From a virus: a DNA stretch of 44,406 nucleotides. The position numbers and the translations under genes are program-made. Under the pieces are notes generated by a model. That model was not told the DNA's origin, did not search any database, and saw only the letters and a program-made list of their open reading frames with translations. The stretch spans positions 1 through 44,406 of IMG/VR virus record IMGVR_UViG_3300035698_012812; one strand, written 5' to 3'. Each line of letters starts with the position of its first letter. Within the stretch, counting starts at the first letter, position 1. Positions 18,116 to 44,406 of the stretch are shown piece after piece.

Positions 18116-18269
18116 TTTTGTTCTCCTTGGGTAAACTACTGTTGTACTCATCAATAGCCCGGTCAACAAACCATCCTTTTACCTCTATCATACTCTCAGC
18201 AGGCTTCCACATGACAGCGTCTATGTTGCCGGATCTGTGGGTTTCATCTACTGTTTTGAAAATTGACAT
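18108..18269 (-). CDS. Small hypothetical protein, 53 aa
   Basis: Begins MSIFKTVDETHRSGNID and ends SSLPKENKND. Its ATG shares its first base with the TAA of the repeat-containing gene (TAATG), and SD AAGGAG lies in that gene's end region. Tryptophan-containing, soluble, function unknown. Confidence 0.6.
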   Translation of the reverse strand: MSIFKTVDETHRSGNIDAVMWKPAESMIEVKGWFVDRAIDEYNSSLPKENKND

Positions 18270-18898
18270 TATTTACTCCTTGTTAGGTTAGCTGTGCCTG
18301 TGTCCCACGTTAGTGTCACTGCGTTGTCTTTTATAGTTGTATGTCCTATGTGTCTAACAACAACTGAAGAGCCGGACATATCCTGAACAACTGAAGAGCC
18401 GGACATATCCTGAACAACTGAAGAGCCGTACATCCTCTTAACAACTGAAGAGTCGTACATCCTCTTAACAACTGAAGAGCCGGACATATCCTGAACAACT
18501 GAAGAATCGTACATATTCTGAACAACTGAATTTGTTAGTCTACCGACTACACAATCTTTCAGAAACAATCCTTTTCTCTCTCTTATCTCATCAACGTCTT
18601 CGGCTATCAAAACCTCTTTCAATACTTCTTTCAGTCTAATCCAACAAACGTCTTCATGCGCAGGTGAAAACCACTCTGGCTTTACCCTTTCATCAACTTT
18701 AAACTTCCACTCACTAATGGGTTTGAATGGATCGTTCTCAGGTGGTACTATTTCTACCTTGGCAAACTTCAATTGTGATCTTATGTCACTGCTGTCCTCC
18801 AGATTAAACATCTCAACCAACTCGTGGTGGTTGTCAATGCCAATCTCACTTATAACTGTCTTATCTTTTAGTACGATACAACTCCAGAAATTACACAT
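18269..18898 (-). CDS. Beta-helix-like repeat protein, 209 aa
   Basis: The N-terminus (MCNFWSCIVLKDKTVI, then VKPEWFSPAHEDVCWIRLKE) is a conserved phage module of unknown function. From about residue 120 the chain becomes six tandem nine-residue repeats of the type SVVQDMSGS or SVVKRMYDS, followed by VVVRHIGHTTIKDNAVT. Regular Ser-Val-Val spacing with small turn residues suits a right-handed beta-helix or beta-solenoid. The repeat is encoded by a 27-bp DNA repeat and can change length easily. SD AAAGGAG precedes the ATG. Confidence 0.7.
   Translation of the reverse strand: MCNFWSCIVLKDKTVISEIGIDNHHELVEMFNLEDSSDIRSQLKFAKVEIVPPENDPFKPISEWKFKVDERVKPEWFSPAHEDVCWIRLKEVLKEVLIAEDVDEIRERKGLFLKDCVVGRLTNSVVQNMYDSSVVQDMSGSSVVKRMYDSSVVKRMYGSSVVQDMSGSSVVQDMSGSSVVVRHIGHTTIKDNAVTLTWDTGTANLTRSK
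18361..18530 (-). repeat. 27-bp in-frame tandem repeat, six units plus part
   Basis: Six 27-bp units (18361-18522) plus an 8-bp partial unit. Units fall into two sub-types, one coding QDMSG-like and one KRMY-like, with differences concentrated in the centre. In-frame length keeps the protein open when units are gained or lost. Confidence 0.9.
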
Positions 18899-22250: not shown

Positions 22251-22448
22251 ATGAAGCTTGAAACTTACCGCAAAAACAAGAAGTTAAATTACGACCAATT
22301 GTCAGAGTATTTAGGAATCTCAAGAGCTACAACTTACAACATCTGCAAGGAAAATATAAAGTGCGTCACTTTAAGGAACGCTCACATAATTGTCTCGAAG
22401 ACTTTTGGCATTGTTGACTACCCAGAATTGCTTTGGGGAGATTGTTAA
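22251..22448 (+). CDS. Cro/C1-like HTH regulator, 65 aa
   Basis: Starts MKLETYRKNKKLNYDQLSEYLGISRATTYNICK, a typical lambda-Cro-type helix-turn-helix (the turn at LGIS, recognition helix RATTYNICKE). It should bind operators in the control region directly upstream. The start is the ATG with AGAGG upstream; a GTG two codons earlier is less likely. Its TAA shares a base with the ATG of the primase-helicase (TAATG), so the two are co-translated and regulated together. Confidence 0.75.
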   Translation: MKLETYRKNKKLNYDQLSEYLGISRATTYNICKENIKCVTLRNAHIIVSKTFGIVDYPELLWGDC

Positions 22449-25111
22449 TGAATATAGTTATAAGTGAAATCACTAACGATAATGGTCCTATAAATAAATG
22501 TGTTAGCGAGTCAGGTAAGAAAGCTCAGGCGGCTGTTTATGAGGCTACTGGAAGAACAGTAAACATCCCGATCACTGATGTGTCTGATTATATAACCTCT
22601 CTAGGAGCTCAACCATCAAAGGCACTAGTCCTTGGAGTAAGTGGGCTTGATGAGTTTAGGATAAGACTCAAAGGAAGAGAAGATATAGAAAACGGAATCA
22701 TATCCCGCACTAAGGAGTACTTTAAATACTGCAACTCAGACTCAGTAAGTTTAATGTATTTGGACGTTGATGGTGGCTCTGCCCATGGGGAATGGAGCGA
22801 GGAAGAGGTTGGGCAATTTATAGACTACACAGAAGAAGTTCTTTCAGGATGCATAATAGGAAAGGACGGCGAGTCAAGGAATACCTTATGCAGATGGATT
22901 AGAGAATCATCTTCAGCAGGAGTCCTAAATCCTGAAGGTAAGAAGTCTAGTAACGGCCTCCACATATTCTTCCCAGTAAGAAACGCTGACAAGCTTGTTA
23001 TCGAATACTTATTTAAGCTTGCTTGGTTAAGATTCAAGAGTCATATGGTCACAAGATCTGGTAATGTACTCGCTAGAACAGTTGTTGATGAAGCTGTCAA
23101 AACACCAGAGCGTTTGGTTTTTGAATCTGACTGCACTGTTGAGGGTGATTACTCTACAATTCCTCGCGGCTGTGAGTACGTCCCTGGAGGAGTTCTGGAT
23201 GCTGAGTTGGCTGTGTCTAGGTTTGACGAGCTCGGCATTAAAGAGGCGTATGACTACGAGGTTAAGGACTATTTGAATGACCTCAAGAGCTCTCCTGAAG
23301 TACAGAAGGTAAAGAAAGACTACGATGCTCTTAGTATTGACGGACTGACCGCTAAGGGAGTTAAACGATCTATTGCAAAGAGAACTGTCAAAAGTAGAAG
23401 GGCTGGAGTTTTACTCAGCACTGACTTTCTTATTAAGGATGACATGAGTGAAGTTAGTGTTCTTGACGTCCTTCTCAACGGCGATGACTGGAACGAGGTA
23501 GGAGGTTTCCGCCCTCCTTTAGAGCCAGAATACGGTGCAGGTAAGTGTAAGATATTTGTTAATGACGACCGTACCATACTTAATTCATTTGCTCACGGCG
23601 GCGAAGTTTATGAGCTTAAGTTCGACCCTACTGACCTGTTACAGTGGATTAAGGACTCTCCCAGAGATGAGATTGAGGATTGGTATGAGGAGTTTTTACT
23701 TAAGACTGAACTCAGCAAGGCCTCTGAAAGTAAGCTGGCTGGTAGGATAGCTGATAAATTAGACCTCACTAAAACAGACATACGTTTGGATTTAAAGGAT
23801 GCTGTTGTTTCCAGAGCTGAAGATATAAAAGAGGAAGATGATGCTAACACAATTAATCCAGAGTCAACCCACCATCGTTTATCTGTTGATATACTTAAAG
23901 GGTTTAAAGACTACAGAGTTTTTGGCGGTGAAATGTATGCTTTTGATAAGACTATCTGGAATAAAAAGGATAATGGAATCTTATTAAAGGCTGTCGGCAC
24001 TAAGTATGAAGGGGTCAAGCTGTGCCGTACCGGCTCTCAGTATGCTCAAGTAGTAAAACACACCCTAGCTACCGCTGGAAATAAAGTTGACGCGTGGAGA
24101 GGCTCTCACGGCTTCCCATGTTCTAATAGCTTCTGGAGGACAGAGGTTGTAGGTGACAAACCTTCTGTTGATAGTATTCCATATGATAAGGATTTAGGGG
24201 CCAGATTCAAATTGACCTTCGAACCTGATTTTGAAATGAAAACTCCAATGTTTGATCAGTTATTACATAATGTGGTTAATGTTGAATGTCTGCAAAAAGG
24301 ACTTGGGTTGGCTATGTGTGGAAGCCTTACTGATCTCCAACAGGCTATTGTAATGAAGGGTCCAGGTGGAGTTGGTAAAGGAACTCTACAAAGAATCATG
24401 TTGAGCATCCTACCCAGAGGTCGCGTTACTGCTTTGAGTTTTGGTATGCTTAATGTTTTGGAGCGGGTTATTGGTTTGAAGGACTCAGTTATTAATTTCA
24501 TTCCGGAGGTTAAGAAAAACACAGGTAGAAATGATAAGCCAGTGAACACGGCCGGATTCAAAATGGCTACAGGTCGGGACTTGATGTCCGGAAGGAATTT
24601 ATTCAGGGATACGGTTGAGTTTGAGTGTCCCTGTAGTTTTGTTGTTAGTATGAATGCTTGGCCTAGGTTGGATTCATTCTCTAGTGAGATTGAAAGACGT
24701 TTGTCTGGGTTTATAGTTGAATTTCAACATAACCACGATGAAGTTATAGATGGGATGGAGGTAGGGATAATTGCTCATGAATTACCTGGAGTTCTTGCTT
24801 GGCTGATAAACGGTGTTAAGATGTGGATTGAAAACAAGTCGGTTGATGCACACAGTGGAGAATTGTTTCGGTCTTGGGCTCAGTCTGTAGACTCAGTTGA
24901 AACGTTCATACTTGATAAGTGTAGAATTGGTCACGGTATGAAAGTTCTAAGGACAGGGATGTGGGATAAATATAAAGAGTTTTGTATTGATGGTAGCATG
25001 GAGCAAGTATCAAGAAACGAGTTTTATAATAAGGTTGAAGAGGTCAATAATGTGTTCGCAGAACGTAAGGAAGATGGGAGGTACTTTAATGGGATCTGTT
25101 TGGAGATTTAA
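22448..25111 (+). CDS. AEP primase-SF3 helicase (D5-like) replication protein
   Basis: An 887-residue primase-helicase. The N-terminal archaeo-eukaryotic primase domain has YLDVDGG (D106, D108), a conserved SNGLHIFF (histidine 172) and a VVDEA segment supplying a third acid. A linker of about 250 residues follows. The SF3 helicase core has GPGGVGKGT (638-646, K644) as Walker A, NFIPEV as Walker B-like, then VVSMNAWPRL (sensor 1) and SEIERRLSGF (arginine finger). The last 70 residues (YKEFCID... RNEFYNKVEE... GRYFNGI) form a winged-helix-like tail. In D5-like proteins this domain set primes and unwinds DNA at the origin. The start is set by a TAATG overlap with the Cro-like gene. Confidence 0.9.
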   Translation: MNIVISEITNDNGPINKCVSESGKKAQAAVYEATGRTVNIPITDVSDYITSLGAQPSKALVLGVSGLDEFRIRLKGREDIENGIISRTKEYFKYCNSDSVSLMYLDVDGGSAHGEWSEEEVGQFIDYTEEVLSGCIIGKDGESRNTLCRWIRESSSAGVLNPEGKKSSNGLHIFFPVRNADKLVIEYLFKLAWLRFKSHMVTRSGNVLARTVVDEAVKTPERLVFESDCTVEGDYSTIPRGCEYVPGGVLDAELAVSRFDELGIKEAYDYEVKDYLNDLKSSPEVQKVKKDYDALSIDGLTAKGVKRSIAKRTVKSRRAGVLLSTDFLIKDDMSEVSVLDVLLNGDDWNEVGGFRPPLEPEYGAGKCKIFVNDDRTILNSFAHGGEVYELKFDPTDLLQWIKDSPRDEIEDWYEEFLLKTELSKASESKLAGRIADKLDLTKTDIRLDLKDAVVSRAEDIKEEDDANTINPESTHHRLSVDILKGFKDYRVFGGEMYAFDKTIWNKKDNGILLKAVGTKYEGVKLCRTGSQYAQVVKHTLATAGNKVDAWRGSHGFPCSNSFWRTEVVGDKPSVDSIPYDKDLGARFKLTFEPDFEMKTPMFDQLLHNVVNVECLQKGLGLAMCGSLTDLQQAIVMKGPGGVGKGTLQRIMLSILPRGRVTALSFGMLNVLERVIGLKDSVINFIPEVKKNTGRNDKPVNTAGFKMATGRDLMSGRNLFRDTVEFECPCSFVVSMNAWPRLDSFSSEIERRLSGFIVEFQHNHDEVIDGMEVGIIAHELPGVLAWLINGVKMWIENKSVDAHSGELFRSWAQSVDSVETFILDKCRIGHGMKVLRTGMWDKYKEFCIDGSMEQVSRNEFYNKVEEVNNVFAERKEDGRYFNGICLEI

Positions 25112-25159
25112 GTTGCTCCATGTGTTAGAGAGTCCTGACACTTTGCTGACAAAGCCCTT

Positions 25160-25450
25160 GGCTGACACTTTCCGACACTTTCCTGACAGTTGGATAGTTA
25201 ATGGTAGTATGGTTAAGATCCAGAATCCTGACACTTTATTACTAAATACTATTATATGAAAAATATTTTTTAAAAAGATACCACATTGTAGTGAAACGGT
25301 TGTTTTTGCCGTTATCGGACTGTTTGTCGCATACCCCTTGAAAAAATTTTTCTATAGGAGGATTGTTTGTAAAAAGTGTCAGGAATCTGGATCTTAGACA
25401 TACTGACATTGGTTATCCCACTGTCAGGAAAGTGCCGGAAAGTGTCAGCC
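25160..25450. other. 78-bp inverted repeat with iteron-like motifs: candidate replication origin
   Basis: The arms (25160-25237 and 25373-25450) are exact-length reverse complements with 68 of 78 bases identical, separated by 135 bases. Each arm carries TGACACTTT-type motifs two or three times, pointing inward, and one more lies just outside at 25136. The spacer is AT-rich (ATATTTTTTAAAAAG) and holds a hairpin AACGG/CCGTT and a GAAAAAATTTTTC near-palindrome. Repeated motifs plus an AT-rich segment next to a D5-like primase are classical origin features. Being noncoding between two replication-type genes supports this; direct function is inferred. Confidence 0.6.
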
Positions 25451-25515
25451 ACTTGGCATTAGGGTAGCCTAACTCGGCTGGGAGTGAATTTTAATTTGTA
25501 ACTAAAGGAAATTAC

Positions 25516-25878
25516 ATGGAATATCGAGATGAAGTTTTAGACAAGCTGAAAGACATGGGCGATCACTATCATAAATTGGCTGTTGATGATGCTGGTAAAA
25601 TGAGTGTTACTTCTAAAGCTGCAAACATAAGTATCAGGTGCTACTCAGAGATACTGAAATCAGAAATAAAGCATAAACCAGTTTCAGTTATAGTTTACAT
25701 CATGCAGACGTTTCAGAACAAAGTTCTTAGATCTGAAGCATATTTTAAATATCAAGGATATTGCTTGGAAAATGATCTTGAGGCTGAGACTAGAAATCAT
25801 TTCTATGATAAGGTTAGTAAACTTCCTTTTATTGAATATAAACGGGAATCTAACGGAAGATTTTTTATTCCTGAGTAG
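25516..25878 (+). CDS. Standalone protein resembling the primase-helicase C-terminal domain, 120 aa
   Basis: The second half (YFKYQGYCLENDLEAETRNHFYDKVSKLPF... RESNGRFFIP) aligns by eye with the end of the upstream primase-helicase (YKEFCIDGSMEQVSRNEFYNKVEEV... KEDGRYFNGI). Shared features include Y..(F/Y)C, RN.FY.KV and GR.F. The N-terminal half is helical. It looks like a partial copy of the winged-helix tail, placed just past the inverted repeat, so it may bind the same DNA or regulate the helicase. SD AAAGGAA. The homology is inferred from visual alignment only. Confidence 0.65.
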   Translation: MEYRDEVLDKLKDMGDHYHKLAVDDAGKMSVTSKAANISIRCYSEILKSEIKHKPVSVIVYIMQTFQNKVLRSEAYFKYQGYCLENDLEAETRNHFYDKVSKLPFIEYKRESNGRFFIPE

Positions 25879-26774: not shown

Positions 26775-26817
26775 TTGACATAATATCATTTAAAGTTTAC
26801 TCTCTCCAGAGAGTAAA
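26775..26817 (+). promoter_or_regulatory. Palindromic promoter element, copy 1
   Basis: TTGACA (26775-26780), 17 bases, TACTCT (26798-26803), with arms TTTACTCTC (26796-26804) and GAGAGTAAA (26809-26817) around TCCA. The TTGACA box and its distance from the palindrome are the same in all three copies while the spacer sequence differs, as expected for a promoter with an operator over the -10 region. As read, it points rightward, antisense to the genes on its right. Confidence 0.6.
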
Positions 26818-26820
26818 AAG

Positions 26821-26943
26821 TTAGGTCGATAAGTAATAGGAGAAGAACGGGTAATGTGTTCTCTTGTTTCTCTTTGCATATGCTTTGTGACGGCTCCATG
26901 AGTGTGATCTCAACACACAATAATACTCAAATGTTATTTCCAT
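26821..26943 (-). CDS. Small basic protein, 40 aa
   Basis: Begins MEITFEYYCVLRSHSWSRH and ends RTHYPFFSYYLST; rich in Tyr, Arg and His. SD AAGGAG eight bases upstream. Stops exactly at the edge of palindromic element 1. Function unknown. Confidence 0.5.
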   Translation of the reverse strand: MEITFEYYCVLRSHSWSRHKAYAKRNKRTHYPFFSYYLST

Positions 26944-27190: not shown

Positions 27191-27235
27191 TTGACATTTT
27201 TTCTGTAAAAGTTTACTCTCCAGAGAGAGAGTAAA
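27191..27235 (+). promoter_or_regulatory. Palindromic promoter element, copy 2
   Basis: TTGACA (27191-27196), 17 bases, TACTCT (27214-27219); arms TTTACTCTC (27212-27220) and GAGAGTAAA (27227-27235) around a six-base centre CAGAGA, two bases longer than in copies 1 and 3. The 27109-27190 stretch between this and the gene to the left contains no supported gene. Confidence 0.6.
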
Positions 27236-27246
27236 AAGTTCTAATC

Positions 27247-27842: not shown

Positions 27843-27885
27843 TTGACATCACTTCTTTAAATGTTTACTCTCTGGAGAGAGTAAA
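27843..27885 (+). promoter_or_regulatory. Palindromic promoter element, copy 3
   Basis: TTGACA (27843-27848), 17 bases, TACTCT (27866-27871); arms TTTACTCTC (27864-27872) and GAGAGTAAA (27877-27885) around TGGA. It is followed by an intrinsic terminator only about 50 bases on, with no open frame between. Confidence 0.6.
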
Positions 27886-27960
27886 AAGTTAGTTGGTTCC
27901 AATTTGCCACCACGCAATTGTGCTGGCAAATCAGAACCAGCTTGCTAGGCTGGTTCTTTT
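27878..27960 (+). ncRNA. Putative small RNA with promoter and intrinsic terminator
   Basis: Downstream of palindromic promoter copy 3 the plus strand can fold into ATTTGCCA/TGGCAAAT (8 bp) and then a 9-bp terminator stem AGAACCAGC/GCTGGTTCT followed by TTT. The terminator works only rightward because the other strand has no uridine run. No frame of useful length lies in between, so a noncoding RNA of about 80 bases is the simplest reading. Start site inferred, not seen. Confidence 0.5.
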
Positions 27961-28128
27961 CGCTAGATCGAGTGACATGCCTCAAACATTTTCATAGAAA
28001 ACATTCTTACGGCTCAACATTCCAAGTAATTCAGTTTTATAAACCCAAAAGATTACCCAATCATTTTAGCATATTCTGTTTATTTCATTTTCCGATACAT
28101 TCACTCACAAGTGAATTACGTAATATCG

Positions 28129-28376
28129 TTTACTAAATTTTAGTAAAATGTAATTGCTGGTTATCCTTTCCAATCAAGGCGTGGATACTAGCAAATTTTA
28201 CTAAATTTTAGTAAATTCTGAAAACTTACCAAAATCCAGTAAACGCAAAAATTCCGTTAACGATTCTCAACTAATCGTTTAACGGTTATTTTTACTAAAT
28301 TTTAGTAAAATCGTTTATTTTCTTTTTCTTGTCCTTTGTCCGGTAATTCAGATTACTAATTTTAGTAATCTGAATT
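28129..28376. repeat. Operator-like array of 19-bp palindromes
   Basis: TTTACTAAATTTTAGTAAA occurs at 28129-28147, 28197-28215 and 28291-28309, with a degenerate copy at 28225-28243. A longer perfect palindrome (15-bp arms, 28345-28376) carries ATTACTAA and TTAGTAAT at its core. Single-base centres and identical length suggest sites for a dimeric DNA-binding protein. A single further site lies at 21016-21034. The remainder of 27961-28392 has no supported gene. Confidence 0.75.
28245..28285 (-). terminator. Stem-loop after the 28393-28950 gene
   Basis: Arms CCGTTAACGATT (28254-28265) and AATCGTTTAACGG (28273-28285) pair with one bulge. On the minus strand the stem is followed by AATTTTTG, giving a plausible intrinsic terminator for leftward transcription. 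It also sits among the operator palindromes. Confidence 0.55.
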
Positions 28377-43546: not shown

Positions 43547-44406
43547 ATGTCAGAATTCATCAGTCTCGGAATAGATCCATCGGATATAAGAAGTCTGAAA
43601 GACGGATACAAACATATAGAAGAGATTGGCGTCAAGGCCAATCTGACAGACAAGCAAATTAGATCTCTTAAGAAGTCGTTAGAAGATGCTATCGCCGCAA
43701 TGGCGAAGATAACAACCCAAGACCCATTCAAAAATCTAGCAAAAAACACAGGAAAAGCCAAAGCAGCATTCAAAGAACTGACAACAGAAACAAAAAAATA
43801 CTATAGTGAAGGAAGTAAGGCCTTAAAAGATACTTCTTTCATGAAAACAACGCGTGAGGCCAAAGCACTGCTTCTTGTAGAGAAGCAACTAAACAGGGAG
43901 ATAGAAAAACAAGCAGCGGTAGTAAAAGAACTGGCAGTTGTTTCTGGTCAAGGCGGAGCAGTACTTAGAGCAGAAGCTAGAAAGCTAAGAATTGCAGAGG
44001 CACAAACTCTAGAACTGAAAAAACAGTTAGGGGTTATTGGCATAAAGACATCTGCCGAAGGTAAAAGTTACGCTGCACTGAAGAAACAACTAGCAATACT
44101 ACATGAAACCAACACACTTGAGAAGGGTATAGCAGCTACAAGGGCAGCAGCAGATAAAGCGGGTAAAGACCTAAGAACATCTGAATTAAGAAAGCAAGGG
44201 GCTCTACTAACCACCACAAACAGCTTGGAGAGGGGTATAGCCTCCATGAGGGCCGCTGCGGATAAGGCTGGTAAAGACCTAAGATCAGAGGCTTTAAAGA
44301 AACAGATACGTCTCCTCAACGAAACAAACAGCTTGGAGAAAGGCCTAGCAGCTACAAGGGCAGCGGCAGACAAAGCAGGTAAAGACCTAAGATCAGAGGC
44401 TTTAAA
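43547..44406 (+). CDS. Tape measure protein, N-terminal part, continues past the window
   Basis: Begins MSEFISLGIDPSDIRSLKDG and is almost purely helical, with many Lys, Ala and Glu residues. From residue 188 a 36-residue repeat appears. The place directly after the chaperone fusion and the long helical build fit a tape-measure protein that sets tail length. SD is a weak AAGG nine bases upstream. The gene is open to the window edge. Confidence 0.8.
   Translation, partial: MSEFISLGIDPSDIRSLKDGYKHIEEIGVKANLTDKQIRSLKKSLEDAIAAMAKITTQDPFKNLAKNTGKAKAAFKELTTETKKYYSEGSKALKDTSFMKTTREAKALLLVEKQLNREIEKQAAVVKELAVVSGQGGAVLRAEARKLRIAEAQTLELKKQLGVIGIKTSAEGKSYAALKKQLAILHETNTLEKGIAATRAAADKAGKDLRTSELRKQGALLTTTNSLERGIASMRAAADKAGKDLRSEALKKQIRLLNETNSLEKGLAATRAAADKAGKDLRSEAL
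44108..44406 (+). repeat. 108-bp in-frame repeat in the tape measure gene
   Basis: Units start at 44108, 44216 and 44324 (third incomplete), each coding TNSLEKG..ATRAAADKAGKDLR with variation at the ends. Tandem change of unit number would alter tail length in 36-residue steps. Confidence 0.85.

Follow-up and report, generated by a model that had tools for sequence, protein, structure and literature searches.

The 404-bp non-coding gap between a phage primase-helicase gene and the small gene that follows it carries a long inverted repeat with mirrored iterons, and we consider it very probable, judging from its sequence, that this element is the replication origin of the phage. The DNA analysed, referred to below as the window, is a whole stretch of 44,406 nt; it comes from a tailed phage, genes for a DNA polymerase, a terminase, a portal protein and a protease being present in the window. 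The anatomy of the element is clear-cut, its placement is conserved in divergent relatives, the two flanking proteins share a homologous domain, and repeats of this kind are linked to the 3′-end of the primase gene in other phages as well.

Architecture of the element

The gap extends from the primase stop (25111) to the start of the gene for a 120-aa protein (25516). The features of the region are the following.

22433-25111, plus strand: primase-helicase gene, SF3/D5-type helicase with a C-terminal winged helix, putative initiator
24941-25087, plus strand: winged helix of the primase (Pox_D5-type, residues 837-885), expected iteron-binding domain
25134-25144, plus strand: outer iteron CCTGACACTTT, beyond the left arm
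25159-25237, plus strand: left arm of the inverted repeat, with GACACTTT at 25164, 25174 and 25230 (first base) and the variant GACAGTT at 25185
25238-25372, no strand: spacer, AT-rich (29% GC) and probably the region that melts
25340-25352, no strand: A/T tract GAAAAAATTTTTC within the spacer
25347-25358, plus strand: core motif TTTTTCTATAGG; CTATA/TATAG is enriched in spacers of such origins
25373-25451, minus strand: right arm, mirroring the left, with GACACTTT on the minus strand at 25373-25380 and 25439-25446
25516-25878, plus strand: companion protein of 120 aa, whose N-terminal half is helical and whose winged helix spans residues 72-119

The arms are complementary at 69 of 79 positions. 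Their score of 54 compares with a maximum of 12 over 60 dinucleotide shuffles, and with 19.5 for the runner-up inverted repeat of the 44-kb window. The initial annotation of this DNA had described arms one base shorter (25160-25237 and 25373-25450) matching at 68 of 78 positions, which is the same count; the AT-rich spacer of 135 bp and the near-palindrome that it placed there are present as well, the latter being GAAAAAATTTTTC, whose A/T tract continues into TTTTTCTATAGG. The hairpin that it saw in the spacer does exist, with a fold no stronger than expected by chance (z = -0.87, equalled by 41 of 200 shuffles); because this fold is not significant, the hairpin was dropped from the argument for an origin.

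Motifs recurring in both arms and outside of them had also been noted, and this proved correct. The iteron TGACACTTT is carried in both arms, the gap holds six exact copies of GACACTTT, and CCTGACACTTT lies outside the arms. Four of the six copies are on the left and point right (first bases 25137, 25164, 25174 and 25230, plus strand), while the two on the right point left (25373 and 25439, minus strand). In 100 shuffles any 8-mer reached three copies at most. With up to one mismatch allowed, seven TGACACTTT-type motifs were found in the gap, against 0.38 expected from their density elsewhere. The copies at 25164 and 25174 are spaced by 10 bp, about one helical turn, with the GACAGTT variant 11 bp beyond.

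The flanking proteins, divergent relatives and other primase loci

The primase has 892 residues if translated from a TTG, with an in-frame ATG at residue 6. It matches the PHROG DNA primase family (E-value 3.8e-27) and, in a profile search, the DNA primase of PDB entries 7ola/7om0 (E-value 2.2e-7), which we take to be a protein of SaPI5. PF19263 was found in the primases of all five family members and Pox_D5 in four of them. By homology, the protein is likely to be an initiator of the SF3/D5 helicase type with a C-terminal domain binding double-stranded DNA. The AlphaFold2 model of the primase was confident only in the winged helix, the helicase part being unusable. Residues ∼1-420 (22433-23700) gave no Pfam match and show ∼26% identity to proteins encoded on Ruegeria and Roseivivax plasmids.

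The neighbouring gene at 25516-25878 had been said to resemble the C-terminal domain of the primase, and BLASTP agrees (37% over 49 aa, E-value 3e-10). AlphaFold2 predicted that its product has three helices and, after them, a winged helix, with a mean pLDDT of 84.9. A Foldseek search with this model returned mostly winged-helix proteins, the best hit, Orc1/Cdc6 (2qby), having a non-significant E-value of 0.02. When the small proteins of the family and the primase C-termini, five of each, were compared profile to profile, the probability was 96.4% (E-value 1.3e-9). Pox_D5 was detected in three members of this small-protein family of five, that of the window not being among them. Every one of the five family members has the small gene. 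BLASTP with the primase C-terminus finds the small protein of the same locus in four (L004/window, L016, L071 and L092), and for L053 the similarity was seen by alignment. In the remaining loci of the survey described below only two marginal matches to the small protein appeared.

The closest relative, L004 (61 kb), has a gap 100% identical to that of the window and is thus uninformative as a test of conservation. Single-protein searches for close relatives returned L004 only, and an exact scan of viral contigs for the iteron pattern hit, apart from the near-identical relative, only L009, by chance; a first scan of a genome collection found no relative, and a second one, with alignment, only distant helicases. 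Four divergent relatives were found by degenerate pattern scans; primase identity to the window is 45% in L016, measured on the C-terminal 258 aa, and 33% in L053, L071 and L092, measured on the full length. In all four the order on the same strand is the primase gene, a non-coding stretch of ∼440 bp that holds repeats and an AT-rich core, and the small gene. The conservation of the repeat among relatives of the primase, which the initial annotation had named as a test, is therefore seen in place and layout. The iterons differ: TGCCCCA occurs 10 times in mixed orientation in L016, TTGGGGC three times on the plus strand at the left and three times on the minus strand at the right in L053, AGTGACA five times in L071, and TCAGGGCA three times in L092, which also has a pair of 32-nt arms matching at 88%. 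The arms beat shuffles in L016, L071 and L092. In L053 the arms alone fall short of them (14 versus a maximum of 15) and the case rests on iteron orientation; in L092 the iteron counts do not exceed shuffles and the case rests on the arm pair. Placement and layout kept while the iteron sequence changes are what one expects for the sites of a co-evolving initiator. We counted against the origin reading that L071 and L092 have a near-identical primase winged helix, yet different long arms.

The small protein of the window scores 104 with its own primase, 33-56 with the other small proteins and 24-62 with the other primases, and the L016 protein, too, is closest to the primase of its own locus (67 versus 32-39). 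The L092 protein favours the primase of L071, a near twin, and the L053 protein has no clear preference. From these sequence comparisons it appears that small protein and primase may both follow the same changing iteron.

To see how general the layout is, we used 88 SF3/D5 primase loci that were usable after a scan for ELPG[VIM]LAW; as the loci were picked by this helicase motif, the percentages hold for that set. The 300 nt after each primase stop were scored against 700 stretches from the same loci that follow long open frames other than the primase, these controls being mostly mechanically found open frames rather than curated genes: 55% of the primase loci were above the 95th and 30% above the 99th control percentile (Mann-Whitney p 1.5e-22). 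Scores of at least 14 were observed on the 3′ side in 23 of 53 loci and on the 5′ side in 4 of 53 (p 7.6e-6). Among the 38 non-redundant strong cases, tandem repeats with a period of 8-12 (mostly 9) were present in 23 left arms (∼1 in shuffles), and CTATA/TATAG occurred in 19 spacers (6.4 in shuffles, with a maximum of 13). In the 38 strong loci of the comparison with controls, the spacer GC was below that of its own contig in every case. Examples of two or three iterons mirrored about a short core are L120 (TGCAAGGGT, three copies), L131 (TAGTGACGCG, three copies) and L109 (TCTGAGGCT, three copies), and the named phages phi105, Javan626 and IME1365_01 show the mirrored layout after the primase. 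The rule of a mirrored repeat is not universal, since Rowa, BPP-1, GMA4 and, weakly, Caron showed no clear repeat after the primase in the scan. An excess of the k-mer GTCCTGA in the survey turned out to come from various repeats in different loci.

Two further observations were made in these loci. Cores similar to TTTTYCTATAGGRG are found repeatedly 3′ of the primases of phages with unrelated iterons (L087, L055, L043 and the window at 25347, among others); they may mark a site of melting or loading that these phages have in common. At positions 18-150 past the primase stop, L086 has an array of CTATACACAC/GTGTATAG in both orientations, likely another iteron origin with a different layout.

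Known origins and alternative readings

Origins of SaPIs and other PICIs have two iteron sets around an AT-rich region, directly 3′ of rep (PMC6092414), and the C-terminal domain of SaPI Rep and of SCCmec Cch2 binds iterons downstream of its own gene (PMC7581432). The window element shares with the SaPI/PICI origins a site 3′ of an SF3/D5 helicase with a C-terminal iteron-binding domain (a predicted one in the window), paired iteron sets and an AT-rich core: its left arm begins 48 bp past the primase stop, immediately 3′ of the putative initiator gene, and its GACACTTT copies, four plus and two minus, are mirrored around the 29% GC spacer. It differs in having a near-continuous 79-bp mirror instead of short tandem iterons, an extra gene whose product has a domain resembling the presumed binding domain of the initiator, and a full tailed phage as its carrier. 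A PICI satellite this phage is not, with 44-61 kb and terminase, portal, protease and DNA polymerase genes of its own. In the case of the putative origin of SCCmec Cch2 the similarity lies in a D5-family helicase with short repeats downstream of its gene; however, Cch2 has three 5-nt iterons only (AAGTG) and needs direct repeats for binding (PMC7581432), not inverted ones. AAGTG also forms part of AAAGTGTCA in the window.

In phage P4 the crr region, annotated as required in cis for replication (NC_001609), has mirrored type-1 iterons flanking a 45-nt AT-rich spacer. Like the window element, it lies just 3′ of the initiator gene alpha and has mirrored iterons around an AT-rich spacer. The C-terminal winged helix of alpha reads the type-1 iterons. 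P4 differs from the window in that another site, ori, lies kilobases from crr, in that crr includes a 120-bp sequence in two direct copies, and in that its 106-aa gene, presumably the copy-control gene cnr, is found upstream of alpha. A further long inverted repeat of the same type, which could be a P4-type second site, was not found in the window, the record of which may be incomplete.

For plasmid pRN1, a 100-nt stem-loop 3′ of a gene for a primase, SF3 helicase and winged helix is the proposed origin; replication needs the intact stem, the structure being conserved and the sequence not, with no iterons reported (PMC4234260). The window shares with it the long inverted repeat 3′ of the same type of gene, and differs in that its gap holds GACACTTT six times. 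A stem-loop was proposed for BIP-1 too, and BPP-1, described as nearly identical to BIP-1 (PMC4234260), gave no strong inverted repeat in our scan. Since the arms in the window contain iterons, such a stem-loop may in fact be a set of mirrored binding sites. The window element appears to fit the origin class and to join both descriptions, as a stem-loop with arms of mirrored iterons. Given the long near-continuous arms and the companion gene we regard it as a variant of the class; what is new here is the unusual length of the arms and the flanking 120-aa protein with a primase-like winged helix. The interpretation as an origin, made initially from this stretch only, thus agrees with the layout of known SF3/D5 initiator origins (PMC6092414, PMC7581432; P4 crr) and with the generality of that layout across the 88 loci.

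One could suppose that the region serves transcriptional control only, with the iterons acting as operators for the 120-aa protein (and the primase), regulating its own promoter at the arms, and with no role in replication. In its favour, the 120-aa protein has a predicted winged helix, and a sigma-70-like CTGACA-16-TATTAT (10/12) at 25228 overlaps the inner left iteron; still, promoter-like matches are near chance (5 versus 3.2), the repeat is present in about half of the 88 loci while only the five family members have a small protein of clear similarity, and P4 crr and the PICI origins, which have the same layout, are replication sites. We consider this reading improbable.

Less probable again, and disfavoured, is an RNA hairpin, i.e. 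a transcript with a 79-bp stem acting as terminator, attenuator or processing site. The RNA fold of the region has a z of -14.2 against shuffles, as any inverted repeat would give, and neither a terminator match nor an Rfam family was detected; tRNA and Rfam searches returned nothing. Five of the six G.U-or-A.C mismatches of the window arms put the G.U on the gene strand, but when the 38 strong loci are taken together the two strands share such mismatches evenly (28 versus 23), and for lack of strand bias we see no sign of selection on RNA. Iterons also lie beyond the arms, and those of L016 are in mixed orientation.

Long inverted repeats bound by winged helices also occur at packaging, recombination and partition sites, and the element could be one of these; its linkage to the primase gene across divergent phages and the initiator-type winged helix in both neighbours make this very unlikely. 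A transposon relic (MITE) with 79-bp terminal repeats is similarly disfavoured and the least credible reading: the flanks CCCTTG (25153-25158) and CACTTG (25452-25457) agree at five of six positions, like a target duplication, but BLAST of the gap against a phage collection gave AT-rich chance matches only, the relatives have unrelated repeat sequences at the same location, and one iteron copy lies outside the arms.

Proposed mechanism and other repeats of the window

Returning to the reading as an origin of the type used by self-loading SF3/D5 initiators, we infer initiator binding, spacer melting, a replication start at this place and a role of the companion. The upstream primase-helicase would bind the TGACACTTT iterons of both arms, in mirror orientation, through its C-terminal winged helix. 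Two facing helicase assemblies could then melt the AT-rich spacer, which contains the CTATAG core, load onto the separated strands and prime synthesis in both directions. The small protein might tune initiation at the same iterons, competing with the initiator or recruiting it, and perhaps also act on its own promoter near the arms. With the same type of winged helix placed on a helical domain, its most likely target is the iterons read by the primase, and we hold such shared binding to be somewhat favoured. More tentative is a replication switch, in which a stand-alone protein, encoded on the other side of the origin from the primase and joining a primase-type winged helix to a helical domain, would track the same rapidly changing iterons as the initiator; competition between the two for the mirrored arms would then time the firing of the origin.

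GC skew, suggested initially as a check, turns at ∼22 kb, where the gene direction switches too; because the skew follows gene direction, it cannot locate the origin.

The survey suggests that the layout is common 3′ of phage SF3/D5 primase genes. If so, a simple rule could serve to locate origins in the genomes of phages and in metagenomes, and the layout would also bear on the source of satellite replicons. The companion is a candidate replication regulator evolving together with its initiator.

Some other repeats were observed in the window. In an AT-rich gap at 28128-28376 a 20-23-bp palindrome, TTTTACTAAATTTTAGTAAAA, occurs three times, and once more in a shorter form; these sites look like operators of a repressor. 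Three 50-bp copies of TTGACA...TTTACTCTCTCCAGAGAGTAAA (26775-26824, 27191-27240 and 27843-27892) are situated between minus-strand genes and are likely repeated promoters or operators. A 27-nt tandem repeat at 18359-18530, inside the open reading frame 18269-18898, encodes a nine-residue protein repeat; many shifted matches suggest that its copy number differs in L004. At 44120-44406 a 108-nt tandem repeat extends into the end of the window.
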